From a virus, in the IMG/VR virus record IMGVR_UViG_3300042294_004673, positions 1-33,267 of that record: 33,267 nucleotides of DNA, one strand, 5' to 3'. The notes below the pieces were generated by a model. It had not been told where the DNA came from. It did not search any database and saw nothing but the letters and a program-made list of their open reading frames with translations. Numbering within the stretch: position 1 is the stretch's first letter; every line of letters starts with the position of its first letter. This document shows, piece after piece, positions 526-33,267 of this stretch. A program made the position numbers and the translations under genes.

Positions 526-1101
526 TTATAAATTTACTTCACGTAATTTGGCTATATATTCCTTAATATCTTTAATTTGTTCTGCGCTTATTTTACCGCC
601 TTTCCATGTTTCTATATCACCTGCTTCACTAACGTATGTTTCATTTTGTTGAGTTAGCCATTCTTGCACAGCATCTTCAAAATCATCAATTGATTGGTTT
701 TTGTTAAGATTCATCATTTTACGCTGGTATTCATCAAAAGTACCATTAAGTTTTAATTGAGCTTCCATATCTATAACACAATTTAAACACATACTATGGA
801 TAGAATACATTACTTTATTAGCATGAGAAATAATCATTGGTTTATTACATTTAGGGCAAGTTATTGGAAGTACTATTAATTTTTTAAATTTATCCAATTT
901 ACTTACAGTTTGTTTAATACCGTTTTTAATTGTCCATTGACGACCATTTTCTTCCCATACTTCACCTTCTTTATGTTCAATATATGTTTTAGAATAACCA
1001 GTTTGAATACCAGTAGCAGCATTTGTATTATTTGTTATTATATTTCTAATACGGTTTATATCACGTTGAGAAAACTCTCGTTTTAATGCATTTTCACTCA
1101 T
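526..1101 (-). CDS. Zinc-ribbon-containing phage protein, function unknown
   Basis: A 191-residue protein with a clear four-cysteine zinc-binding site: CPKC (about residues 82-85) followed about 22 residues later by CLNC. The N-terminal third is basic and polar (KREFSQRDINRIRNII), which could contact nucleic acid. The C-terminal half is predicted helical (SAEQIKDIKEYIAKLREV at the end). The ATG at 1101 is overlapped by the TGA of the upstream nucleotidase gene (ATGA), and it has the GTT-ATG start context common in this genome. I do not recognise the family; a DNA- or RNA-binding role is only suggested by the zinc ribbon. Confidence 0.75.
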   Translation of the reverse strand: MSENALKREFSQRDINRIRNIITNNTNAATGIQTGYSKTYIEHKEGEVWEENGRQWTIKNGIKQTVSKLDKFKKLIVLPITCPKCNKPMIISHANKVMYSIHSMCLNCVIDMEAQLKLNGTFDEYQRKMMNLNKNQSIDDFEDAVQEWLTQQNETYVSEAGDIETWKGGKISAEQIKDIKEYIAKLREVNL

Positions 1102-1568
1102 AACCCTATCGATTTAAGTTTAAGTATTGTACTAACAGCAGAAGTATGATGTATTCCAATTCCACCTGCTTTATTCCATTCATCAATTGTACTTTTCATA
1201 TCATCAATTAGTATATGATTAGGAGCAGCGAAAAGTTGTTTTTCATGTCTGGGGTAGAATAATGCTTTTCTATATTGGTTGGGTATATTAATTTTTAGCC
1301 ATGCTTCTTTACCTATTTTAGAAGTAGTACTACGTGATGGAGATGATAAAATAAATGGTTTATATTTTTGAATATAACTCCAAAGTCGATGCCCATCAGG
1401 CATCCATTCTAAATTAGCCCAAAACATAGGACCTTCAGCATCTATTGGGGCCCAAAAAGCAGCGTCTCCTTTAATGTAAGTAGAGGTATCAATACCAGTT
1501 AAATCTAAATAACCTTTTTCAAAATTCACTAGTACACCATCCATGTCGCAGTAAATAACGTAACTCAT
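1098..1568 (-). CDS. HAD-family 5'(3')-nucleotidase-like protein
   Basis: A 156-residue protein of the haloacid dehalogenase superfamily. HAD motif I is DMDGVL (nucleophile D8, acid D10). The motif II Ser/Thr is in FILSSPSRST (about 92-101). A conserved basic region (K105-K109) follows, and motif IV is ILIDDMKSTIDEW (about 120-132). Size and motifs fit phage deoxyribonucleotidases or 5' nucleotidases, which dephosphorylate nucleoside monophosphates during nucleotide-pool remodelling in the cytoplasm. It overlaps the next gene by ATGA and follows the nucleotidyltransferase gene by three bases, so it is part of the nucleotide/replication operon. Substrate is not determined by sequence. Confidence 0.8.
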   Translation of the reverse strand: MSYVIYCDMDGVLVNFEKGYLDLTGIDTSTYIKGDAAFWAPIDAEGPMFWANLEWMPDGHRLWSYIQKYKPFILSSPSRSTTSKIGKEAWLKINIPNQYRKALFYPRHEKQLFAAPNHILIDDMKSTIDEWNKAGGIGIHHTSAVSTILKLKSIGL

Positions 1569-1571
1569 ATT

Positions 1572-3062
1572 TTATTTTCTTGTTATATTAATAACACCTT
1601 CTATTTCTTCGATATTATATTTTTCTTTAGGTAAGTTAGTATATAAAAATTTAGTGACTATTCTGTAACGACGAGGATCAATAGGATGAATAGTGACAAT
1701 ATACCAATCTTTATTTGTATTTAAAAAATCTAAAGTAGCATCCATTACAGTGGCATTTATTTTCATTGCTTTACCTTCACCTGTCATAGTACTTTTCATA
1801 CCTTTTTTCTTAACAGGAGCATATATTCTTTCATAAGCACCACCACCTTCGTTCACAAACTTAACTATATAATTAGTTTCACCTGTAGAAAAAGTATAAG
1901 TAGGATCATATCCACCTTTATATTCCCAATCAAATTTATTTTCTAAACTAAATGAAAGTTCTTGTAGTTCAATACTTTCTCTCATCATCTCATAGATCTC
2001 AGTGTGTTTAGCACCATATAATCTCATTAATATACCAGCAGCAGCATTAGCTTCATTTTCAATTGGAGATCCAGTTTCTCCTGAATCTGGTTTTAGCATA
2101 CCTAATTCATCTTGTTTTCTATGTACAAGCTCATGAGCTAAAGTTCTTAAAACATCAGCTAACAAACGAGGGCCAACTATAACAGTTAATTCACGTTTTT
2201 CAATATTATATGTTCCTAAAGCATGCATATTTTTAGCTGCTTCTTCATCATCAGTAAAAGTAATTTTAGGTGGGTCTTTTAATTCAATAGTATCTATAAC
2301 AAAAGAAATAAAATCATTTATTATATCCATTTTTTTGTCTTGGTCTTCTTCGTTCAAAGTTTCACCTAAGTTATTTTTCCACCAATTTATTGAAAATATA
2401 TTTTCTTGTAATTCATTAGGTGAATAAACATTAACATCCAGTATTTTAACTATTTTATCAAAGTATCCTTTTTGGTTTACCGAATCCGGAAAGCAACTTT
2501 TTAAAGTATTTAAAGTATTTAAATACCCGTTTCTAGCCTTAGAATAAGCTGTTGTACTTTTATCTAAAGTATGAAGTTGAGAATTATATGTTTTTAATTG
2601 AGCGACTAATCCACGAACTTGAGTACTTGATAAAGTAGAATTACCTACATTTGCTCTATCAGTAATATTAATAGGTATTACTCTTTCACCAAATGCTTTA
2701 ATCAATGATTTAATATAATTAACATCTTCAGGTTCATTTAATGTACCTGCCACATATGCTTTTAAATTTAAATCACCATCAAAATAATCAAATAAATCTT
2801 TAACAGGCGATTCTGTTGTGCTTATTTTAAATTTTACTTTATTGTTAGGTTGCGAAGCTAAAAAAATCTGCCATATTTTTTTACTCATAAGTGCTGTTAT
2901 TCCATCACTTTCTTTAGATGATATAACTATGATCACTTGAGTAATCTGTGGTAAAGATGATAAGTATTGTACTGTGTTAAAATGACCTTTATGAGGAGGT
3001 TTAAATCCACCTGGATAGAATACAATACCTGATTGAGCTTTGGCTTCTTTTAGTTTATTCAT
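1572..3062 (-). CDS. Fusion: cytidylyltransferase-fold nucleotidyltransferase plus HExxH metallopeptidase-like domain
   Basis: A 496-residue multidomain protein. Residues about 11-155 are a nucleotidyltransferase of the HxGH superfamily: GGFKPPHKGH (18-27) is the nucleotide-binding motif and SSTQVR (145-150) is the matching C-terminal motif seen in adenylyl- and cytidylyltransferases. Residues about 245-350 hold a zinc-peptidase signature HELVH (310-314), with ENEAN (335-339) as a candidate third-ligand glutamate. The C-terminal about 130 residues (DWEYKGGYDPTYTF to the end) are a separate beta-rich domain unknown to me. The first domain suggests NMN, pantetheine or sugar nucleotide transfer; the joining of a peptidase-like domain is unusual. 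It starts downstream of an ATATTTATAT element. Confidence 0.8.
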   Translation of the reverse strand: MNKLKEAKAQSGIVFYPGGFKPPHKGHFNTVQYLSSLPQITQVIIVISSKESDGITALMSKKIWQIFLASQPNNKVKFKISTTESPVKDLFDYFDGDLNLKAYVAGTLNEPEDVNYIKSLIKAFGERVIPINITDRANVGNSTLSSTQVRGLVAQLKTYNSQLHTLDKSTTAYSKARNGYLNTLNTLKSCFPDSVNQKGYFDKIVKILDVNVYSPNELQENIFSINWWKNNLGETLNEEDQDKKMDIINDFISFVIDTIELKDPPKITFTDDEEAAKNMHALGTYNIEKRELTVIVGPRLLADVLRTLAHELVHRKQDELGMLKPDSGETGSPIENEANAAAGILMRLYGAKHTEIYEMMRESIELQELSFSLENKFDWEYKGGYDPTYTFSTGETNYIVKFVNEGGGAYERIYAPVKKKGMKSTMTGEGKAMKINATVMDATLDFLNTNKDWYIVTIHPIDPRRYRIVTKFLYTNLPKEKYNIEEIEGVINITRK

Positions 3063-3066
3063 ACCT

Positions 3067-3076
3067 ATATAAATAT
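3067..3076 (-). promoter_or_regulatory. Candidate late-promoter element ATATTTATAT
   Basis: The minus strand reads CCATATTTATATAGGT, ending four bases before the ATG at 3062. It is an exact copy of the 10-mer at 499-508. Its extreme closeness to the start codon would give a leader of almost no length if it were a −10 element, so an alternative is that it acts in translation initiation. Confidence 0.35.
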
Positions 3077-3078
3077 GG

Positions 3079-3855
3079 CTATAATTTAATTATTGTTGGT
3101 AAAAGCTCAGTAGCTGGTTTAGGGTCTGGGTTTTCTAGTTTATAGATATCATATATTTTTAAAAACATTTCGAAATTCTTATCAATATCATCAATATACT
3201 TTAACTGCCATCCAGCACCTTGTATTTTATCTTTAGCAGATCCACGAGTTGCTGCTTTTAACCATAATATGCCTGTAGTTTCAATTTTAACGTCATGTGT
3301 TTCATTCCACGCTTTAGCATAAGCAGCTAATTGTAAACTATATGTTGTATGTAAAGAATTAGATGTTTTTATATCGAGAAAATGAATTTTATTATTTAAT
3401 TTAACAACTAAATCTCCGGTACCAGCAAATTCATATTCATCTGAAAATAAATGGTATTCAGTAGCAATAAGTTCAGGTTTGTATGCAGTCCAAAACTCAG
3501 CAAACTTTAGTATCATTTTCCAAACATCAAGTGAGTATTTTACATTACCATATTCATCAATCCAACTTACTTCTTCACCAGTGATGAATTGTTCAATAGC
3601 ATTATGTACTTGAGTACCTTCAGCAGCTGCTTTAGCCACAATAATATCACTGTTATGCCCTACATCTTTTAGCCAAGAATAAAAAAATTGATTTTTGGGA
3701 AAATAATTTAAAATAGTACTAACTGATGGATAGTATTTATCATTACGTTTATAAAAGCGTTGATCTAATACATTTATTTGTTTATTATCTTCACTGTATT
3801 CTACAATACGTTTAATTTTAGGATCTTTTAAAATATTAGTGTTTTTTTCTATCAT
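3079..3855 (-). CDS. PD-(D/E)XK nuclease, RecB/Cas4-like exonuclease
   Basis: A 258-residue protein with the RecB-family nuclease order: a histidine in GTQVHNAIEQF (about 80-90), GTGD (D148), LDIKTS (D161-x-K163) and QLAAY (175-179). These correspond to the metal ligands and catalytic lysine of the PD-(D/E)XK core and its QxxxY motif. Phage members act as DNA exonucleases or repair and recombination nucleases. The gene overlaps the primase gene by ATGA at 3852-3855, which supports a role in replication or recombination. It ends with TAG, one of the few annotated genes here that does; read-through would add only seven codons. Confidence 0.85.
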   Translation of the reverse strand: MIEKNTNILKDPKIKRIVEYSEDNKQINVLDQRFYKRNDKYYPSVSTILNYFPKNQFFYSWLKDVGHNSDIIVAKAAAEGTQVHNAIEQFITGEEVSWIDEYGNVKYSLDVWKMILKFAEFWTAYKPELIATEYHLFSDEYEFAGTGDLVVKLNNKIHFLDIKTSNSLHTTYSLQLAAYAKAWNETHDVKIETTGILWLKAATRGSAKDKIQGAGWQLKYIDDIDKNFEMFLKIYDIYKLENPDPKPATELLPTIIKL

Positions 3856-4787
3856 ATTAATTCAAATTTCTTCATAAGTAAATCAGTTATAGTTAATTGT
3901 TGAGCGTTATGAGTTAATCTAGTAAAACGTTCAAAACCCATATCGCTAGGATCTTTATCGTCTAAATCCACTAAATAAACGTCTTTACCCATGTTAAGTA
4001 ATTGTTCAGCGTATTCCATTGCCTCGCGTAAGGCATCATTATCTAACGCTATATAAATCGTTTTAACGTTGGGTTCTATTAGTTTCATCATTAATGCTTT
4101 AGATATACTTTTACCAAATAAAGGAATGGCATTACGTTTAATAGCTATAGCATCAAATATACCTTCACACAGTATTATAGGCACATCCCAATTAATAAAA
4201 TACTCTAATCCTATAATAGCGTTTTTATTACATTTAGGACTATCATATTTTCGGGATGATTCTTTTTCAAATGAACGGCCTATAAAATAATTTAAAATAC
4301 CATTTTTATCATATGAAGGTATTATAATCATATTTTTATATCTTCCTTCTTCACAGTAACCTATATTATATTTTAATATATCGTTTTCTGTTATACCTCG
4401 TTTTTTTAAATACATTAAAGCATGTTTAGCTATTATATCAGTACGTGATATATTAACTAATGGTTTATATTCTTTAGGTAGTTCTACTTTAATTATTTCA
4501 TTATTTTCTTCTTGTTTTTCAGTGTAACCAAGTATTGACTTTAATTCTGTTATTTTATCAGATGGAACTTTAAGTTTTTTAAATAATCCAATTAGTGTTT
4601 TACCTTTAGTACCACACACCCAACAATGCCATGGGTTTTCATTTTTAGAATTAGGTATTAGATTGACTTCGAGTTTAGGTTTACGATGATGACAAAACGG
4701 ACATTCATATGCATAATTACCACCACTAGTGGATTTACCTTTACCTAGTATATTACTAACAGCATTTAATAAAATAGCATTCACCAT
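3852..4787 (-). CDS. DnaG-type DNA primase (zinc finger plus TOPRIM)
   Basis: A 311-residue primase. The N-terminal zinc-binding domain has CPFC (29-32) and CWVC (55-58). The central region (113-200) contains the primase core segment YLKKRGITENDI and IIIPSYDKNGIL. The TOPRIM domain follows, with the glutamate in LCEGIFDA (E209) and the aspartate pair in ALDND (D249, D251), then DLDDKDPSDMG (274-284). It would synthesise RNA primers for lagging-strand replication with a phage helicase. It is shorter than cellular DnaG and lacks the C-terminal helicase-interacting domain, as in T4 gp61 relatives. TGA stop overlapping the ATG of the nuclease gene indicates coupled translation. Confidence 0.9.
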   Translation of the reverse strand: MVNAILLNAVSNILGKGKSTSGGNYAYECPFCHHRKPKLEVNLIPNSKNENPWHCWVCGTKGKTLIGLFKKLKVPSDKITELKSILGYTEKQEENNEIIKVELPKEYKPLVNISRTDIIAKHALMYLKKRGITENDILKYNIGYCEEGRYKNMIIIPSYDKNGILNYFIGRSFEKESSRKYDSPKCNKNAIIGLEYFINWDVPIILCEGIFDAIAIKRNAIPLFGKSISKALMMKLIEPNVKTIYIALDNDALREAMEYAEQLLNMGKDVYLVDLDDKDPSDMGFERFTRLTHNAQQLTITDLLMKKFELI

Positions 4788-4806
4788 ATATAGCGAATAT
4801 AAAAAA

Positions 4807-5256
4807 TTAATCTTGATCTAACAAGTCTTTTCGATAAAAGTGACTTAGAATATTATCATTAATAAACTCATCGTTTTCTAATACATTATACTGGAATAGA
4901 TATTTAGTTTCCCAATATGTTAGTTGTTTTTTAGTTTTACAAAGTTTAAGTAAGTAACGTTTTAATGTTTCTTTAGGAAGAGCTTTAATCATTTCAGATG
5001 ATCCATAATATGTCTTCCAATCACTTTCATTTATAACCTTTTTTGTAGATGGTTTTCTACCTTTAGTGATAGGTAATGCAGCTAATTCTTTTTTACCTAG
5101 TTTTTTATTTTGGGTATGAAAAAATGCTTTTTTACCTATATATTTTTTATAATCAGCGGTAACTGTAATATAACAATACCCATACCAATCAGCAGGGTTA
5201 AAATTAGGATCATTAATTAAATCTTCTATTGTTGTAGCATAACTAGTTTGTAACAT
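4807..5256 (-). CDS. GIY-YIG (Seg-like) nuclease family protein
   Basis: A 149-residue protein. The GIY-YIG core is GYCYI (26-30) and KKYIGKK (37-43), followed by SDWKTYYGSS, and a helix LLKLCKTKKQLTYWETKYLF that supplies the conserved glutamate of the family. I recall this arrangement from small Seg-like or GIY-YIG proteins of T4-like phages. Such proteins are site-specific endonucleases, some of them free-standing homing enzymes; here it sits between the primase gene and the disrupted tail gene at 5260-5619. The start ATG (5256-5254) lies 3 bp after that gene's stop. Whether it is an active nuclease cannot be told from sequence. Confidence 0.65.
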   Translation of the reverse strand: MLQTSYATTIEDLINDPNFNPADWYGYCYITVTADYKKYIGKKAFFHTQNKKLGKKELAALPITKGRKPSTKKVINESDWKTYYGSSEMIKALPKETLKRYLLKLCKTKKQLTYWETKYLFQYNVLENDEFINDNILSHFYRKDLLDQD

Positions 5257-5259
5257 AAT

Positions 5260-5619
5260 TTATGAATCGTATTTAATCAAAAAAGTCATATCGGTTGTTG
5301 AAGACATAGGAATTGGAGATGCCATTTTAGCAACACCTAATAATTCATTTGCGTCATTATATAAACCAATCGCTGTAACATAAGGTTGAAAATTAGAACC
5401 CGTAGCAAAATCTTTTACTATACCTTGTGACCCAGTCATATAATATGATCCTGAATAAGGATATAATTGTCCTTGACTACCTGATAATCAAGATGGGTTC
5501 TAACTAGATCCAAATTCATAATCTTTAATAGTACATTTAATATAGTTTTCATAAATAACATGTTCATTTTTGAAACTAATATTATAAATATATTTTGTAA
5601 AATCTACAGTTCTATTCAT
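5260..5619 (-). pseudogene. Tail protein gene with in-frame UAG and UGA codons (pseudogene or recoded)
   Basis: Reading from ATG at 5619 gives a single 119-codon frame to TAA at 5260-5262, but codon 40 is TAG (5500-5502) and codon 44 is TGA (5488-5490), in the context FGSS-stop-NPS-stop-LSGS. Protein-like sequence continues on both sides in the same frame. The part after residue about 26 matches the C-terminus of the protein encoded at 7546-8565: YIKCTIKDYEFGSS against [14 protein letters not shown], then NPS, then YVTAIGLYNDANELLGVAK against [19 protein letters not shown]. It is therefore a degenerate or recoded tail gene. No frameshift is present. Gln at UAG and Trp at UGA would read naturally, but neither is shown. 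Confidence 0.75.
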
Positions 5620-5633
5620 ATACTAATAAATAA

Positions 5634-6332
5634 TTAACATCTAAAAGATCCTAAATTAACATTTGGGTTATCACATGATGAAATACATGTTCCACAAATA
5701 GCAGCTCCAGTTGGGAAATATACTCCGGCAGTACATGCATTTATAGCTCCATAAGATGATCCAGCAGGTATAAATATATTAAAGTACTGTGTGTAGTTAA
5801 GATATAATGGTGATGAACAAATAGTTGTACTTCCAGGTTGATGATAAACTACAATATAAATGTTAGTATCTACTGTTACATTACCATCTAAACTCACATT
5901 TACTCCCATATAATCATTACCAGCTCCTCCATTACATGCTTGCATAAATCCATTTAAACTTATAACATTAACAGGAGTTGGTGTAGATGTTGGAGTTGGA
6001 GTAGGTGTAGGCGTTGGTGTTGGACTAGGCGTTGGACTAGGAGTAGGAGTAGGTGTTGGCGTTGGGCTAGGTGTAGGTGTAGATGTAGGTGTTGGACTAG
6101 GCGTTGGACTAGGAGTAGGAGTAGGTGTTGGCGTTGGGCTAGGTGTAGGTGTTGGTGTTGGTGTTGGAGTAGATGTAGGTGTTGGTGTTGGACAACTATT
6201 ATAATCCACCGCGGGAGCAATATAATCAGGATCTGAAGGTGAGTTTGGTTTAACTATTCCAGTTAATTGACCATTATCTAGATAATATTGATCTAATGTG
6301 TTATATCCTTTATATCCTGTATTTACTGGCAT
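5634..6332 (-). CDS. Tail/fibre-associated protein with Thr-Pro linker and Cys-rich C-terminal domain
   Basis: A 232-residue protein in three parts. Residues 1-47 contain [10 protein letters not shown] and a Cys, a pattern I associate with surface or virion proteins of Bacteroidota phages. Residues about 48-123 are a low-complexity Thr-Pro/Ser-Pro linker, likely extended and stiff. The C-terminal about 110 residues form a beta-rich module with many cysteines ([26 protein letters not shown]), plausibly a receptor- or glycan-binding tip. The linker DNA carries two copies of a 61-bp repeat that also occurs in the next gene. No signal peptide is seen. A role in host attachment is inference from architecture and from position at the distal end of the tail cluster. 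Confidence 0.7.
6019..6151 (-). repeat. Two copies of a 61-bp Thr-Pro linker repeat
   Basis: An identical 61-bp unit (plus-strand start GTTGGACTAGGCGTTGGACT) lies at 6019-6079 and 6091-6151, separated by 11 bp. A third exact copy is at 6793-6853 in the neighbouring gene. All lie within frames encoding [12 protein letters not shown]-like linkers, and the unit is built of degenerate 6-bp (Thr-Pro) steps. Confidence 0.9.
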
Positions 6333-6344
6333 TTTTGATTATTT

Positions 6345-7535
6345 TTATGTACAAGCTAAATTAAATCCTGTATTTCCATATAAGTTTACATTTTCATTAG
6401 TAACTATTACTGTTGATTGTCTACCAGGACATCCACTTGGTAATACTGCATAATCATTAGGTGTGCTTACTTTTAATGACATAGCTGTTGTTCCACTGCT
6501 ACTTGGTCCTAAAGTATCAGATATAGCAAAATATAATGTTGTTCCATTAGTTATATTATTAATTGTTCCTATTAATTGGCCTGTTGTTGTAACAGATGTA
6601 CTTAACATATTGTTAGATGTAACAAAATTATCTGTACTCCACCAAACATGTGCTCCAGCTTGAGTAGATGAAAGTTTAGCATACACATTCACACTATATA
6701 CAACCGCAGTTGGAGTAGGTGTAGGTGTTGGGGTTGGAGTAGGTGTAGGTGTTGGTGTAGGCGCCGGTGTATCTGTAGGTGCTAAAGTTGGTGTTGGACT
6801 AGGCGTTGGACTAGGAGTAGGAGTAGGTGTTGGCGTTGGGCTAGGTGTAGGTGTTGATGTTGGGGTAGGAGTTACTGTAGGAGTAGGAGTAACTGTTATT
6901 TGGCAAAATGGATCTGCTCCTTCCCATCCTGTTGGTCTTATACTGTTTGGTATAATAGTAAGAATAGCTATATTTTGTTCATAAAAAATATTACCTATAT
7001 AATCACCATTATTAACATTAGATCCAATAGAAGAAGATTGAGTACTTCCGCTGTAATACAAATTATAGTTTCCATCATCATATATAGCTCCACCAGAAAT
7101 AGCCATATTAAATGTAGTAGGTAATATTTTAGAACCCGCTAATTCAAATGGAATATTAATTGTAAGAATACTAGCATAAGATGATGTAGGAAACCATTTA
7201 TATGTATCTTTATTACCTAAATCAACATATCCATTATAGTACGAACTAGTACTTAAATTATCATAATATATAGTATTAATTCTAGAACCTGTATTTACTT
7301 GTGTAGGTAAAAAAGTAGGATAATATGTTAAATTAACAGAATCATAAACTAAACGATCAAACTGACCATTAGTATTATATTCATTATTAGGATCAAAAGT
7401 GCCAGGTATATTAGTTCCAAAGTTAAAAACTATATTATTAGTAACAAACGATTGAGAAGGAATATTCCAATTTTTGTTTGCTATGTAGGGTACTACAAAA
7501 GCATCAGATACACTAATTCGTTTAAATGCTGACAT
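6345..7535 (-). CDS. Tail/fibre structural protein with Thr-Pro linker
   Basis: A 396-residue protein. Residues 1-about 212 form an N-terminal domain (start [20 protein letters not shown]) typical of conserved virion proteins of this phage type. Residues about 213-277 are a Thr-Pro/Ser-Pro linker that includes the third copy of the 61-bp repeat. The C-terminal about 120 residues are a beta-sandwich-like module ([14 protein letters not shown] to GFNLACT) with two cysteines. It is co-transcribed with the linker protein downstream and with 7546-8565 upstream. The N-terminal domain probably attaches to the tail and the C-terminal module is probably exposed; this is inference. Confidence 0.7.
6793..6853 (-). 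repeat. Third copy of the 61-bp Thr-Pro linker repeat
   Basis: Identical by eye over 61 bp to the copies at 6019-6079 and 6091-6151 in the neighbouring gene. The flanks diverge (here LAPTDTPAP-type codons follow), which points to recent local copying or gene conversion of the linker rather than selection on the protein alone. Confidence 0.88.
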
Positions 7536-7545
7536 TGGCGTAACA

Positions 7546-8565
7546 TTAGAAGTCTAATTTAACTCTTAATAACATTTCTTTAGTAAAATCTTTAACCAAC
7601 GGTTTATTTAATTTAGCTACAGCTAATAGATCTCCTGAATTATTAAATAATCCTATTGTTGTGGCGTATGTTTGGGGATTATAGATTAAGCTAGTATATA
7701 ATAAATTACCATTACTATCTATAATAGATGGGTTAGTTGTATAATTAAAGTCACTATTTTTTACTCTTACAAAAAAGTAAGCAGAAGAAATAGTTTCATA
7801 GTTTTGTAAATTAAAACTATTTAATAATCTAGAAACTTGACTATTATTAGCGTTTCCTGTTGATAGTGAGGTTGCTGAATTTGAATTATCAAAAATAGCA
7901 CTTATACCACCATTTGTTCCAGGAGCTAAAGCTAGTGCTCTTGGATTTAAAACAATTAATCCTTCATTAGGTAATACTATACCATAACTACCTTGAGATG
8001 TATAAGAAGTAGAATAAACATTATTAGCTGATCCACTTAATAATTGATATACTTGAGTAGAACCAATAAATGTTGAAGTAGTAGTTACAGTAGAATCATC
8101 AGTTAAAGTAATACTATTACTACCACTAGTTAATTTTAAAGTTAAAGAACCAGGGTTAATTGCTTCTTTAAAACGAGCTCTGTTTATAGATAAAACAATA
8201 ATATCTGGAGACACTGTAGTTGAACTACCAAAAGTAAAAGCAGCGTTTTCATCTCCAAAAATTAAATTACGGTATTGACCATAAATGTCTCTGGTTGGGG
8301 TTTTATCAGGGATAGCATTGTTAAAATACGCTGAACCCGATCCGCTGACATGACCATATGCTATAGAAAACTGAACTTCTGCTGCTGATGAAAACAATGG
8401 GTTAGAATTATAAACATCAAGATAAAATCTACCTCCATTTGATACTTCTTGATTTGAAGAAGTAAAAAACGAAGTTAAAGTAGTTATACCATTAGACCAC
8501 ATAGCAGATATAGTCGCATCTGAACTTATTACTGAGTCACCTGGTTGGAATGCTGCAAACGACAT
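7546..8565 (-). CDS. Virion structural protein, tail/fibre region
   Basis: A 339-residue protein, Ser/Asn/Thr-rich and beta-strand-rich throughout. The N-terminus [20 protein letters not shown] and the C-terminus [18 protein letters not shown] followed by [15 protein letters not shown] are patterns I recall from conserved structural proteins of T4-like phages of Bacteroidota and cyanobacteria. The last about 80 residues are paralogous to the interrupted frame at 5260-5619. It lies between the 219-residue structural protein and the linker proteins, all in one direction, so it is part of the late tail operon. Exact place in the particle is unknown. Confidence 0.75.
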
Positions 8566-8577
8566 ATTATTTTTTAA

Positions 8578-9237
8578 TTATTGGTTTTTAGTTACAGTTA
8601 ATGGAATAGTAATTCTAGCACCACTATCTCTACCAACAACATTAATTGTAGTAGTTAATTGCTTTAAACTAGTACCAAATAAAGTATTAAGTGTAGTAGC
8701 TACAACTGTAAATGAAGTACCAATTTGAGTTACAGATAATGTAGTACCACTAGTTCCAATAGGTTGAGTTAAATTTAAACCTGTTGTATCTATACCAGTA
8801 CCAGTAAATGTGGATGTTAATCTTGAATCACCAATTGTCATAATATACCCTGATGGTTCAAATACTGTGGTAGCACCAAGATAATTTAAAGTTTGTGGTG
8901 TTATATTAATTGAAGCACCTTGACGTAAAGAAACAGAAGCATATCCTAAATTAAGTACTGGGAGTTTACTTGTGCCACGAGGTAAAGTAACTAATTTATA
9001 TTTCATTGCTTGTGTTTCATCTACAAATGCTTGTAATAAAGGCATAGCTTCAATAGCTTCACCAAAAAAAGCAGATCCTGATGGGTGGTTTGGATTATAT
9101 AAAGTATAATCTACTTCATCATCAGATAATGCGAATTGAGTTATTTGGAATGAACCATCATTACGAGCTAATAATTCACGGCCTTTTTTAGTTAAAACGG
9201 CGTCAATTGTTACATACTGATTGTTTAAATATGACAT
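8578..9237 (-). CDS. Virion structural protein, tail-associated
   Basis: A 219-residue protein starting MSYLNNQYVTIDAVLTKKGRELLA, a start I recognise from a widespread family of phage tail-associated structural proteins. Two parts are visible: an N-terminal helical/acidic domain (1-about 70, with FALSDDEVDYTLYNPNHPSG) and a beta-rich Thr/Ser/Ile-rich C-terminal half ending in an Ig-like pattern (TTTINVVGRDSGARITIPLTV). It sits 12 bp upstream of the 339-residue protein gene, and an ATATTTATAT element precedes it. Function in assembly or adhesion is unknown. Confidence 0.75.
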   Translation of the reverse strand: MSYLNNQYVTIDAVLTKKGRELLARNDGSFQITQFALSDDEVDYTLYNPNHPSGSAFFGEAIEAMPLLQAFVDETQAMKYKLVTLPRGTSKLPVLNLGYASVSLRQGASINITPQTLNYLGATTVFEPSGYIMTIGDSRLTSTFTGTGIDTTGLNLTQPIGTSGTTLSVTQIGTSFTVVATTLNTLFGTSLKQLTTTINVVGRDSGARITIPLTVTKNQ

Positions 9238-25153: not shown

Positions 25154-25248
25154 GTGAGTTTTTATTTTTGGTATGGCGTGGTATATATGTATATATTTGT
25201 CGATGCAGGCTTGTGTTTAAGATGTATAAATACATAGAAGACCACGGT

Positions 25249-25334
25249 CCTCTAAAACTCCCCCATGATGGACCTCTATTGTTTGGGGAGCAGATCCTCT
25301 ATAGGTCAAAAATTTTTACTACATCCTCTAAAGA
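25249..25334. repeat. Array of four CCTCTA-type decamers
   Basis: CCTCTA occurs at 25249, 25273, 25296 and 25325 (spacing 24, 23 and 29 bp). The third copy, CCTCTATAGG, is the exact reverse complement of CCTATAGAGG at 27463-27472 in the second array. A 6-7 bp inverted repeat (ACTCCCCC at 25257-25264 with GGGGAG at 25285-25290) lies among them, as does GACCACGGTC at 25240-25249. The array fills the space between the terminator at 25331-25364 and the promoter at 25123-25153. Confidence 0.55.
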
Positions 25335-25364
25335 AAAAAGATGGACCAAATTTCTTTGATCCAT
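25331..25364 (-). terminator. Rho-independent terminator after the AT-hook-like gene
   Basis: The minus strand reads ATGGATCAAA-GAAA-TTTGGTCCAT, a 10-bp stem with one G-U pair and a four-base loop (25364-25341), followed by CTTTTTTCTT. It is 21 bp downstream of the stop of the gene at 25385-25687. Confidence 0.72.
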
Positions 25365-26862: not shown

Positions 26863-27032
26863 TTAGCCCCTTGGTTTGGTTACCCCAATTATTCTTTTTA
26901 ATTTTAGGTTGCCGATTAATGGGCGGGCGCGTAATGAAACACGTGGAGGGATCAAAGGTATGCTCGGTGTGAAGCAGGGTATGGTATAGTCTGTGATGGT
27001 TATGTATCTGTTCCACGTATCCCCCATACCAA
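26863..27032. other. GC-richer spacer without a supported gene
   Basis: Between the terminator at 27034-27064 and the promoter at 26831-26862 lies about 170 bp that is visibly richer in G and C than its surroundings (for example GGGCGGGCGCG at 26920-26930). Two overlapping minus-strand frames exist, but one starts inside the terminator hairpin and the other runs through the promoter, so neither is accepted. ACGTGG (minus strand, near 27018) and CCACGT (near 26940) could pair. It may be a small RNA or a remnant of other origin. Confidence 0.35.
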
Positions 27033-27033
27033 T

Positions 27034-27064
27034 AAAAAAAGACCCCATCACTTCTGACGGGGCC
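27034..27064 (-). terminator. Strong Rho-independent terminator after the HTH gene
   Basis: On the minus strand GGCCCCGTCA (27064-27055) pairs over ten positions (two G-U) with TGATGGGGTC (27050-27041), GAAG being the tetraloop, followed by seven T residues. It lies 22 bp downstream of the HTH gene stop and is the clearest terminator in the window. Confidence 0.85.
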
Positions 27065-27085
27065 CCCTTACCAACACTAACTGTT

Positions 27086-27292: not shown

Positions 27293-27315
27293 AACATTAT
27301 TTAATTTATTGGGCA

Positions 27316-27347
27316 TAAAGATAGTATTGTTTTTGTATGTAGCCAAA
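27316..27347 (-). promoter_or_regulatory. Promoter of HTH gene, TTTG-N20-TATCTTTA
   Basis: TTTG (27347-27344) and TATCTTTA (27323-27316) with exactly 20 bp between them, 23 bp upstream of the ATG at 27292. Unlike the nine early promoters it has neither the ACC box nor the TAATTTTA −7 box, so it may be controlled differently. Confidence 0.65.
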
Positions 27348-27427
27348 CTTGTTTTGTATAAGGTGGGTTTGGAGATGTGGTAGGGTATACGTAACTTCAT
27401 AGGCTAGCCCAAAATACAAACAGTGAA

Positions 27428-27527
27428 TCAACAGAGGCTATCATGCAACCGTTAGAGTATAGCCTATAGAGGTAACCTGTAGTGGATACGTACCAACCTG
27501 TAGTGGTTATGCACCAATTTATAGAGG
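27428..27527. repeat. Phased array of six degenerate decamers, operator or iteron-like
   Basis: Decamers related to CCTATAGAGG lie at 27428 (TCAACAGAGG), 27449 (CCGTTAGAGT), 27463 (CCTATAGAGG), 27476 and 27497 (CCTGTAGTGG twice) and 27518 (TTTATAGAGG). Spacings are 21, 14, 13, 21 and 21 bp, close to whole or half multiples of a two-turn helix. The two middle copies are part of near-identical 21-bp units. AACC-N6-GGTT is an inverted repeat at 27495-27508. The array lies upstream of the HTH promoter and next to an AT-rich stretch (27531-27553). Confidence 0.6.
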
Positions 27528-27569
27528 CATTATATATACTTATATATTATTTGAGTTATGGATAGATGG

Positions 27570-27615
27570 GGGTGTGGCGTGGGTTTTCCACCAGACCCAA
27601 ATCGCCACGTCACCC
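27570..27615. other. GC-rich nested hairpin, RNA structure or origin element
   Basis: Three stacked stems are visible: GGGTG (27570-27574)/CACCC (27611-27615), TGGCG (27575-27579)/CGCCA (27603-27607) and TGGGT (27580-27584)/ACCCA (27595-27599), with a 10-base loop and bulges of CGT and AAT. In so AT-rich a genome a 46-base structure of this kind stands out. No T-tract follows on the minus strand; on the plus strand ATATTTTATTT follows. It could be a non-coding RNA, a replication-related hairpin or a terminator. Confidence 0.5.
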
Positions 27616-27616
27616 A

Positions 27617-27877
27617 TATTTTATTTACTTTCCACCTACTATCCTATCCCTATATATTTACATAACCATATTTATATTATTGTCGGTCACCTATTAATAC
27701 TGCTTGTCATCCATACTTGTCATCTATTTGGTATTGTATAACATTGTTTTATATTATTGTAATTTATTATATTCTTGTACTACCACGTTTCATTATTATA
27801 TTTTATATTCTGGATTATATTGGTATTGGTTTGTTTCGTTACTGTGTATTTTTCTTTACTATATTTTTTATTCAGGG
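27617..27877. other. Intergenic AT-rich stretch, no gene seen
   Basis: This about 260-bp stretch lies between the nested hairpin and the end of the 58-residue membrane protein gene. The longer plus-strand frames here are AT-rich, low-complexity and run into the antisense of minus-strand genes, and no start or promoter supports a minus-strand gene. A direct repeat TTGTCATC lies near 27704 and 27717. Together with 27401-27616 it is the longest non-coding interval in the window. Confidence 0.45.
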
Positions 27878-28062: not shown

Positions 28063-28263
28063 TTAATTTTCAATTTCACGTTTAACTGCTATAATTAAAG
28101 CTATAGCAAAAATACCTATCAATATTTTAACAGTTGTTACTGTACCTATTGTTTTATCCATATAAATTATTCCTGCTGGTATTCCAATAAGTAATCCAAG
28201 AATAGCCGCAACAATTAATGTTGCTTTACCATATAGTTTTAATTGTTTTAGTATATTTTTCAT
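28063..28263 (-). CDS. Small membrane protein with two transmembrane segments
   Basis: A 66-residue protein. Hydrophobic stretches at about 14-33 (ATLIVAAILGLLIGIPAGII) and 43-59 (TVKILIGIFAIALIIAV) are flanked by basic N- and C-termini (KNILKQLKLYGK; KREIEN), so both ends are probably cytoplasmic. The ATG overlaps the TGA of the upstream gene (ATGA, 28260-28263). A holin is conceivable by size and two spans, but no endolysin is adjacent and nothing else supports it. Confidence 0.6.
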   Translation of the reverse strand: MKNILKQLKLYGKATLIVAAILGLLIGIPAGIIYMDKTIGTVTTVKILIGIFAIALIIAVKREIEN

Positions 28264-28880
28264 TTGTTTTCTATTTTAGTGTCGTATAATTCAGTTGCTA
28301 TCTTAATGGCTTCTTCTGTACTTAATTGGAATATTATATTACCACGATAATCAACGATTATGCTTTTTGAAATAAATAACGCCGCCCATTCCTTGATTTT
28401 GGATTCACGTTCTTTTTTCTGTGAACCTGCGATAAAACATTCTTCATAGCCACGCTTATACCCTCTATTTTCAGCTTCTTCATTCTGTTTGTTTGAGGTT
28501 TCTATTTCAAGAAAACTACCTTCTTTATTTTCCCAACTTAAATTGTTCGTTTTATTTTCTTCTTCTGCCATGAAAAGGTCGTATGGAGAATCATTAGGAG
28601 GAAAGGCTCTGCCTAAATTATCAACTGAAATTTGGCAATCTCCATCTTTAAAATAATGCCAGCCAAATTCGTTGGACTTAAAATATTTATATCCTGTTTC
28701 TTCTTTTCTAGTTATAACAGGTGCTCCAGCATGAAATAAATCTAACATATCTTTACTATCATTTAATGTTACTTCAATCTCAGATAAATCACCGTCTGTT
28801 TTTAAAATAACTACTTTATCCTTTAATTCATTTTGAATGCGTTCAAAACGATCTGTGTAAATCCAAAATGTGTATTTCAT
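28260..28880 (-). CDS. Hypothetical protein, 206 residues
   Basis: Not recognised. The N-terminal half (MKYTFWIYTDRFERIQNELK; residues 1-about 105) looks like a mixed alpha/beta domain ending in a W-H-Y-F-rich segment (FGWHYFKDGDCQISV). The middle (about 105-135) is polar and probably flexible. The C-terminal part (NRGYKRGYEECFIAGSQKKE onward) is helical. It is the first gene of an operon with two small membrane proteins and has a promoter at 28897-28928 and the AAGTTATG start context. Confidence 0.6.
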   Translation of the reverse strand: MKYTFWIYTDRFERIQNELKDKVVILKTDGDLSEIEVTLNDSKDMLDLFHAGAPVITRKEETGYKYFKSNEFGWHYFKDGDCQISVDNLGRAFPPNDSPYDLFMAEEENKTNNLSWENKEGSFLEIETSNKQNEEAENRGYKRGYEECFIAGSQKKERESKIKEWAALFISKSIIVDYRGNIIFQLSTEEAIKIATELYDTKIENK

Positions 28881-32153: not shown

Positions 32154-33267
32154 TTAATATTCAAATTTTAATTTACTAAAATATTCATTACCTTTTAAAG
32201 ATACAACATTAGAATAATCTTCTTTTGTTAATTCGTTGTTTTTTAACTTTTTTGTTCCTTTTTCATCAAACTTAAAGCTAAATATCTCACCCTGTCTGTT
32301 AATAGAGATAAGATTATCTTTCAATTTAAGAGGAATTTGGCAAAGAGAAGCGATAGCGTCTTTAGCATTATTTATATCAGGATTAACTCCTAAAAAGAAC
32401 ATTCTATCGGTGCTGGGGCAGTAGCATCTTACATAAGATATGTCAATGTTATTGACTTTTCCTTTAAATAAAGTGTACACGCCTATATTCATTCCTTTTG
32501 TTGTTTTTTCAAGGTATTTTTCTTCTTTTTTATCTACATAAGTATCTGTTTCTTTTAAATATTTAGATAAAAACCTAAATACAAATTCTCCTCCAAATTT
32601 TTCTTCATAAAAAGCCAACACTAAAGATTTTATTTCTTCATTTTTTTCTTTAGTCCACATATCAAATGTGTACTCTTTATTTAATAATTGGTGAAACAAT
32701 TTTTCCTCAACTGTTACTCCATTAAAACTATACATACCCCACCCATCAGGATATATAATTGATTTTTCTTCAATAGAATGTAATTGACCTTGAGAGTTTA
32801 GATTTATTTTCTTGGGTCGATTACAAACTATAACAAAATCCTTGTTGCACCAAATATAATTGACAGATGAGTTTATTGATTTATATATCTCATATCTTTC
32901 TTTTATATCATTATTAACTTCTAAACCACAATAATCTATAAAAAAAGAAATATAAGCCGTTCCCCAATACCACCCGCCAACCCAAAATTGACCTCCTAAA
33001 ACATTGTGCCAACTTAATTTTTGTTTTTCTATTAAAGATAAAACAGCACCATCAACAGCACCACGAACAGCATCATGAACAGCACCACGAACAGCATCAT
33101 GAACAACACCAATAACAGCACCAAAAACAGCATCACTAACAGCACCACCAACAGCGTCACGAACAGCACCACTAACAGCGTCACGAACAGAATCAACAAC
33201 AGCAACACCAACAGCACCATTAACAGCACCACCAACAGCACCACGAACAGAATCAACAACAGCAACA
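32154..33267 (-). CDS. DUF6745-like protein with N-terminal tetrapeptide repeats (5' partial)
   Basis: The frame is open from TAA at 32154 to the right edge (about 371 codons), so the start is outside the window; the first internal ATG (32735) is in mid-domain. From high to low coordinate: a 226-bp tandem-repeat region (Ala-Val every four residues), then LSWHNVLGGQFWVGGWYWGT, ISFFIDYCGLEV, the stretch IIYPDGWGMYSFNGVTVEEK and a helical C-terminal part. WHNVLGGQ/WVGGWYWG and the YPDGW motif match the DUF6745 proteins I know, whose biochemical function is not established. Role in the phage unknown. Confidence 0.7.
   Translation of the reverse strand, partial: VAVVDSVRGAVGGAVNGAVGVAVVDSVRDAVSGAVRDAVGGAVSDAVFGAVIGVVHDAVRGAVHDAVRGAVDGAVLSLIEKQKLSWHNVLGGQFWVGGWYWGTAYISFFIDYCGLEVNNDIKERYEIYKSINSSVNYIWCNKDFVIVCNRPKKINLNSQGQLHSIEEKSIIYPDGWGMYSFNGVTVEEKLFHQLLNKEYTFDMWTKEKNEEIKSLVLAFYEEKFGGEFVFRFLSKYLKETDTYVDKKEEKYLEKTTKGMNIGVYTLFKGKVNNIDISYVRCYCPSTDRMFFLGVNPDINNAKDAIASLCQIPLKLKDNLISINRQGEIFSFKFDEKGTKKLKNNELTKEDYSNVVSLKGNEYFSKLKFEY
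33042..33267 (-). repeat. 12-bp tandem repeat coding for Ala-Val tetrapeptides
   Basis: About nineteen degenerate 12-bp units. In the sense frame they read AVRGAVHDAVRGAVDGAV: GCT-GTT is constant, and two variable codons give pairs such as RG, HD, RD, GG and SG. The unit is best kept in the region 33042-33160 and continues to the right edge. Similar four-residue repeats before DUF6745-type domains occur in other bacteria, from memory. Confidence 0.85.

Follow-up and report, generated by a model that had tools for sequence, protein, structure and literature searches.

We favor the reading that the non-coding interval at positions 27293-27877 of the DNA analyzed here is a multi-site control element, at which a protein would bind repeated sites beside a phage promoter in an Immutovirus-like phage, and we put the probability of this reading at roughly one half. 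We prefer it to a replication origin because decamers arranged in 21-bp steps stand before a promoter-like element, and because element B, as we call the part of the interval that is conserved in relatives, always lies beside a regulator gene. The first-pass annotation had proposed a candidate origin or a master operator at this place. Its view of the region as a real cis-acting element is supported, five other Flavobacterium-type phages keeping part of the interval ahead of the HTH gene, and the multi-site operator that it gave as the alternative is what fits best, the last three decamers being placed at 21-bp steps directly upstream of the promoter-like element.

The 33,267 bases analyzed here, hereafter the window, make up a virus record (IMGVR_UViG_3300042294_004673) and represent part of the genome of a T4-like, Immutovirus-like phage. 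Its exonuclease (3079-3855) has 57% identity to the counterpart in Flavobacterium phage immuto (Immutovirus, 160 kb). Collinearity of the baseplate and tail block extends to immuto and to six IMG/VR contigs of 162-174 kb, and among the collinear records a 56.9-kb contig (G005, the contig of L019) comes closest. Nearly all genes of the window lie on the minus strand. As had been claimed, the interval is the longest intergenic gap in the annotation (585 bp, with a GC content of 0.33 vs 0.28 in genes), and it adjoins the small HTH gene, so that the decamer array does lie upstream of that gene. The features are collected in Table 1.

Table 1. Positions of the features in the window
Feature	Position	Strand	Basis or remark
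Element A, conserved non-coding, with a AATNGMGGTCCATCGA-like core and TAGAGG x4	25167..25345	-	nhmmer profile
TAGAGG copies in element A	25249, 25273, 25296, 25325	-	
TATATACATATATA, after the TAGAGG sites of element A	25182-25195	-	
Intrinsic terminator after the HTH gene	27036..27069	-	
Small HTH-like protein, 68 aa, four helices	27086..27292	-	Homologues; AlphaFold2 pLDDT 87; weak XRE-like matches
HTH gene promoter of host (Bacteroidota-like) type, TTTG-N20-TATCTTTA	27316..27347	-	Pattern class enrichment
Six-decamer array, consensus YCTRTAGWGG	27428..27527	+	Unsupervised recovery, 0/500 shuffles; cluster unique in 1.44 Mb of related genomes
Decamer TCAACAGAGG	27428	+	
Decamer CCGTTAGAGT	27449	+	
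Decamer CCTATAGAGG	27463	+	
Decamer CCTGTAGTGG	27476 and 27497	+	
Decamer TTTATAGAGG	27518	+	
Element B, with homologues in the non-coding DNA that precedes HTH genes in G005, L247, L250, L262 and L271	27532..27714	-	
AT-rich element TATATACTTATATAT, copy of the phage promoter-like ATATA[CT]TTATATA	27533..27547	+	Directed away from the HTH gene
GC-rich hairpin, immediately downstream of the AT element	27566..27617	+	z -3.86 as + strand RNA
GTCAYCYAT repeats, a second and looser family, at 27609, 27686, 27706 and 27719	27609..27727	+	

The decamer array and its adjoining promoter-like element

A blind, information-weighted repeat search of the interval, with CCTATAGAGG as its seed, returned exactly the six decamer starts of Table 1. 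Their score of 58.4 was reached by none of 500 shuffles (mean 36.1, maximum 52.2), and the tandem 21-mer within the array exceeded 1000 shuffles. The information-weighted count was used in place of an unweighted decamer count, which missed the array because AT-rich repeats score higher. These positions and the 21/14/13/21/21-bp spacing agree throughout with the first-pass annotation. Its description of the array as phased applies to the pair 27428/27449 and to the triplet 27476/27497/27518, each of which runs on 21-bp steps, but not across the two groups, which are offset from one another by 27 bp, or about 2.6 turns, with the 27463 site in between. All six decamers lie on the same strand and are repeated sites in direct orientation; as initiator sites they are candidates only.

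Within 1.44 Mb of related genomes the six-fold array is found in the window phage alone; only single decamers recur in kin. Across these 11 genomes (2.9 Mb when both strands are counted), CCTGTAGTGG is present only as the two array copies. Among the further relatives it recurs in the element B copies of L250 and L271, beside the AT element. Since it otherwise occurs only in the array, CCTGTAGTGG probably belongs to element B proper and has been multiplied in the window phage.

The AT-rich stretch reported next to the decamers is also real, and it contains TATATACTTATATAT. Coding-strand copies of the corresponding consensus number 24 in the 11 genomes, where roughly 1.4 would be expected, and most of them lie 1-30 nt ahead of an ATG; the only copy on the other strand is at window position 27534. 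This copy matches the consensus exactly, but is reversed and has no gene after it. The host-type promoter assigned to the HTH gene belongs to a pattern class with 18 members in the window vs 6.5 expected (0/100 shuffles). The decamers of the interval therefore stand between two divergent promoter-like elements, adjoining the phage-type one. An open reading frame of 35 aa on the plus strand at 27558 was considered possible and was set aside for want of support.

The GC-rich hairpin that had been noted downstream is genuine as well and folds better than shuffles, with z values of -3.9 as plus-strand RNA, -1.5 as minus-strand RNA and -3.2 as DNA. No conserved fold was found for it among relatives. 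A conserved RNA fold was likewise sought in the element B block of the kin on either strand and was not found, and an Rfam search of the interval gave no match, leading us to reject an RNA gene in the interval. The lack of a conserved RNA fold indicates that the control element probably acts as DNA.

Elements B and A in related phages

Searched directly, the interval as a whole had no match in the phage collection and none by pattern scan, and as a query against 14 related records it gave short weak matches only; against the collinear G005 alone there was no significant alignment. Homology emerged only through a profile built from four relatives (G005, L247, L250 and L262) with the window left out. 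With this element B profile, nhmmer matched window positions 27714-27532, on the same strand and at the same place relative to the HTH gene, and this was the only notable match in the window. The match is modest (E=0.0033) and is partly made up of the AT element. The four profile sequences are clearly homologous to one another (0/200 shuffles). In all four, and in L271, a GC-rich non-coding stretch precedes the HTH gene, and element B stands before an HTH gene in every distinct case (6/6). The AT element is reversed, as in the window, in four of the five other element B phages (L247, L250, L262 and L271). The GTCAYCYAT repeats resemble the GGTGACAAG-type units of element B in the kin. Comparison with related phages, which had been proposed as a check, hence bears out the segment at 27532-27714, which is kept in the five other phages, but neither the six-fold array nor the hairpin.

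Element A is better conserved than the decamer array. A profile built without the window matched window positions 25345-25167 with E=2.9e-13. The element is single-copy in 9 of the 11 genomes, mostly 2-4 kb before gene 21740, and a gapped pattern located it in 31 IMG/VR contigs, all but one of which encode homologues of window proteins. The window has few TAGAGG sites (nine copies on both strands), and four of these copies cluster at 25249-25330 on the minus strand (0/2000 shuffles). Element A ends in TATATACNNATATA; the order of iterons followed by the AT element is conserved in it, and is present in the array region of the window too. When we scanned the 11 genomes for the AT element consensus with at least two same-strand TAGMGG-like sites no more than 250 bp upstream, using a pattern that took in the window's own TAGTGG, only five element A copies and the array site were found. 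A search of IMG/VR for TAGAGG abutting the promoter element produced five unconvincing matches. Several element A contigs have the HTH gene 1-4 kb before the element, as does the window. Element A as a folded RNA was rejected, with z near zero in most sequences. In the window and in L234-L264, element A shows TAGAGG/TAGCG repeats and the core GGTCCATCGA, and stands before tail and baseplate genes.

Homologues of the HTH protein are present in 18 IMG/VR loci, most of them without element B and with plain coding sequence upstream instead. The window protein has 79-85% identity to homologues without element B vs 49-58% to those with it (L019, L250 and L262). Because it is thus closer to homologues from phages without element B, the sequences suggest that the HTH gene has been replaced at a fixed locus, and this kinship may also bear on the private nature of the array. 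At L013 (485-788), and at L005 and L007 (near 5635-5930), tmRNA and tRNA genes lie directly upstream of the HTH homologues.

Proposed mechanism and competing explanations

In the control element that we favor, a sequence-specific protein of the phage or the host would bind cooperatively to the decamers, and probably to the GTCAYCYAT repeats too. The bound protein would set the activity of the promoter-like AT element, and possibly also that of the HTH promoter. With an assumed start near 27555, the decamer centers would fall at about -32, -53, -74, -87, -101 and -122, a layout expected of activator or repressor sites. The HTH protein may be what binds the decamers; its model has four helices with weak XRE-like matches. 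Since the recognition core TAGAGG is shared by the array and element A, one protein may act at both places. More tentatively, the one or two iteron-plus-promoter elements of Immutovirus-like phages (element A, with element B in some) might serve as transcription-primed origins or late-switch enhancers under one phage protein that binds TAGAGG-type sites. Counting against the control element are the missing gene downstream of the reversed promoter-like element, the lack of conservation of the six-fold array, the modest match of the window to element B, and the frequent occurrence of the HTH gene without element B. A narrower and unlikely proposal is that the interval is an autoregulatory operator of the HTH protein alone, with the decamers as its sites for repressing or activating its own promoter. 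The exclusive placement of element B upstream of HTH genes is in its favor, as is the four-helix AlphaFold2 model, which Foldseek matched to Aca11, AcrIIA15 and C-protein autoregulators, albeit weakly (E 0.2 or worse). However, most HTH homologues have no such interval, 80 bp separate the HTH promoter from the nearest decamer upstream of it, and element A, which shares the core, exists in G012, where no HTH homologue was found, and in the partial G014. Somewhat less improbable is that element A sites were once duplicated and that the array is what remains of them, decayed or neutral. In favor of this are the restriction of the array to the window phage and the good conservation of the copy in element A; against it, two identical decamers persist, and the element B copies of L250 and L271 have the decamer at a fixed position. 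We consider it very unlikely that the interval encodes a small structured RNA made from the plus-strand promoter with the hairpin as its body: the hairpin does fold on the plus strand 20 nt past the promoter-like element and is followed by T-rich DNA, yet it has no Rfam match and the fold is not kept in kin on either strand.

We judge a T4 oriE-type origin of replication to be possible but clearly less probable than the control element. Here iterons, a promoter and AT-rich DNA in element A, element B or both would yield a geneless transcript that primes synthesis. The order of iterons and AT element fits this anatomy both in element A and at 27428-27547, and in five of six phages the reversed promoter-like element of element B has no downstream gene. 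The type phage of Immutovirus also carries a 12-bp ACCCGT array in its longest gap. A GC-skew switch had been suggested as a check: over all sites, the step coincides with element A in several genomes (in G002 and G010 the cumulative maximum falls no more than 25 bp from it) and with 27588 in the window, but at third codon positions the step is absent or displaced, and the one at 27588 is not seen. The GC-skew step does not establish an origin because it is missing at those positions and coincides with a gene-block boundary, from early to tail genes, with no change of coding strand; in the window, moreover, the step is sharpened by the runs of G and C in the hairpin, which is itself not conserved. 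No initiator gene was recognized, as profile searches of the neighboring genes found no Rep and only the small HTH gene near the decamers. An origin based on DnaA boxes was rejected for lack of enrichment, with one TTATGCACC in the interval and 3 boxes in the window vs 4.7 expected.

Known systems and further repeat arrays

As systems, elements A and B are repeat-plus-promoter control regions, a known kind; in a limited search of Rfam and the open literature, neither was found matched or described. The T4-type late promoter is TATAAATA. The AT element resembles it in being a short, AT-only element just upstream of phage start codons with a strong strand bias, but differs in sequence, and the window copy is reversed and geneless. 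Like the operators of XRE, C-protein and Aca autoregulators, the array consists of repeated sites with partial dyad symmetry and is followed by a small HTH gene; unlike them, it sits on the far, upstream side of the HTH promoter and next to a different one, and the structural match of the protein is weak. The array shares with the iterons of theta-replicating plasmids the order of repeats followed by AT-rich DNA, but there is no Rep gene beside it, and the primase (3852-4787) and exonuclease are elsewhere in the phage. The T4 oriE region likewise belongs to a T4-like phage and has short, evenly spaced direct repeats near a promoter and a position near a compositional shift (PMC3016281), and its repeats have been known for years with their role unproven (PMC3016281). 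The differences are the repeat sequence, the 12-nt repeats of T4 vs 10-mers at 21/14/13 bp in the window (PMC3016281), and the missing gene strand switch. Among relatives, the oriE-like repeats are conserved in element A, whereas the array at 27428-27527 belongs to the window phage alone, L250 and L271 having only single decamers.

Across a large set of uncultivated phages, a conserved element of repeats plus promoter occupies a fixed position ahead of the tail and baseplate genes, and the window adds a second site with the same core. Comparable arrays in the isolate immuto make the role of such repeats testable in a cultured system. The longest non-coding gap of immuto (MW353176, 66260-66860; L154, 16260-16860) holds about 18 ACCCGT-type repeats at roughly 12-bp spacing. 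In G012, a non-coding gap at oriented coordinates 2600-2730 has an array of CTAGACCT (reverse complement AGGTCTAG) at about 9-bp spacing. A GC-richer non-coding block of 241 bp, highly alike in L111 (7026-7266), L112, L115, L150 and L151, contains ATATATTTATATA and lies upstream of the homologue of gene 23723. In the window, a search for relatives of the protein at 28260-28880, a neighbor of the interval, found none, and a GC-rich non-coding stretch is present past the HTH terminator (26880-27000). Low-complexity coding repeats with units of 6-12 bases occur at 5973-6192, 6709-6891 and 33042-33267, and the related contig L140 has 25 clustered tRNA genes at 949-9011.
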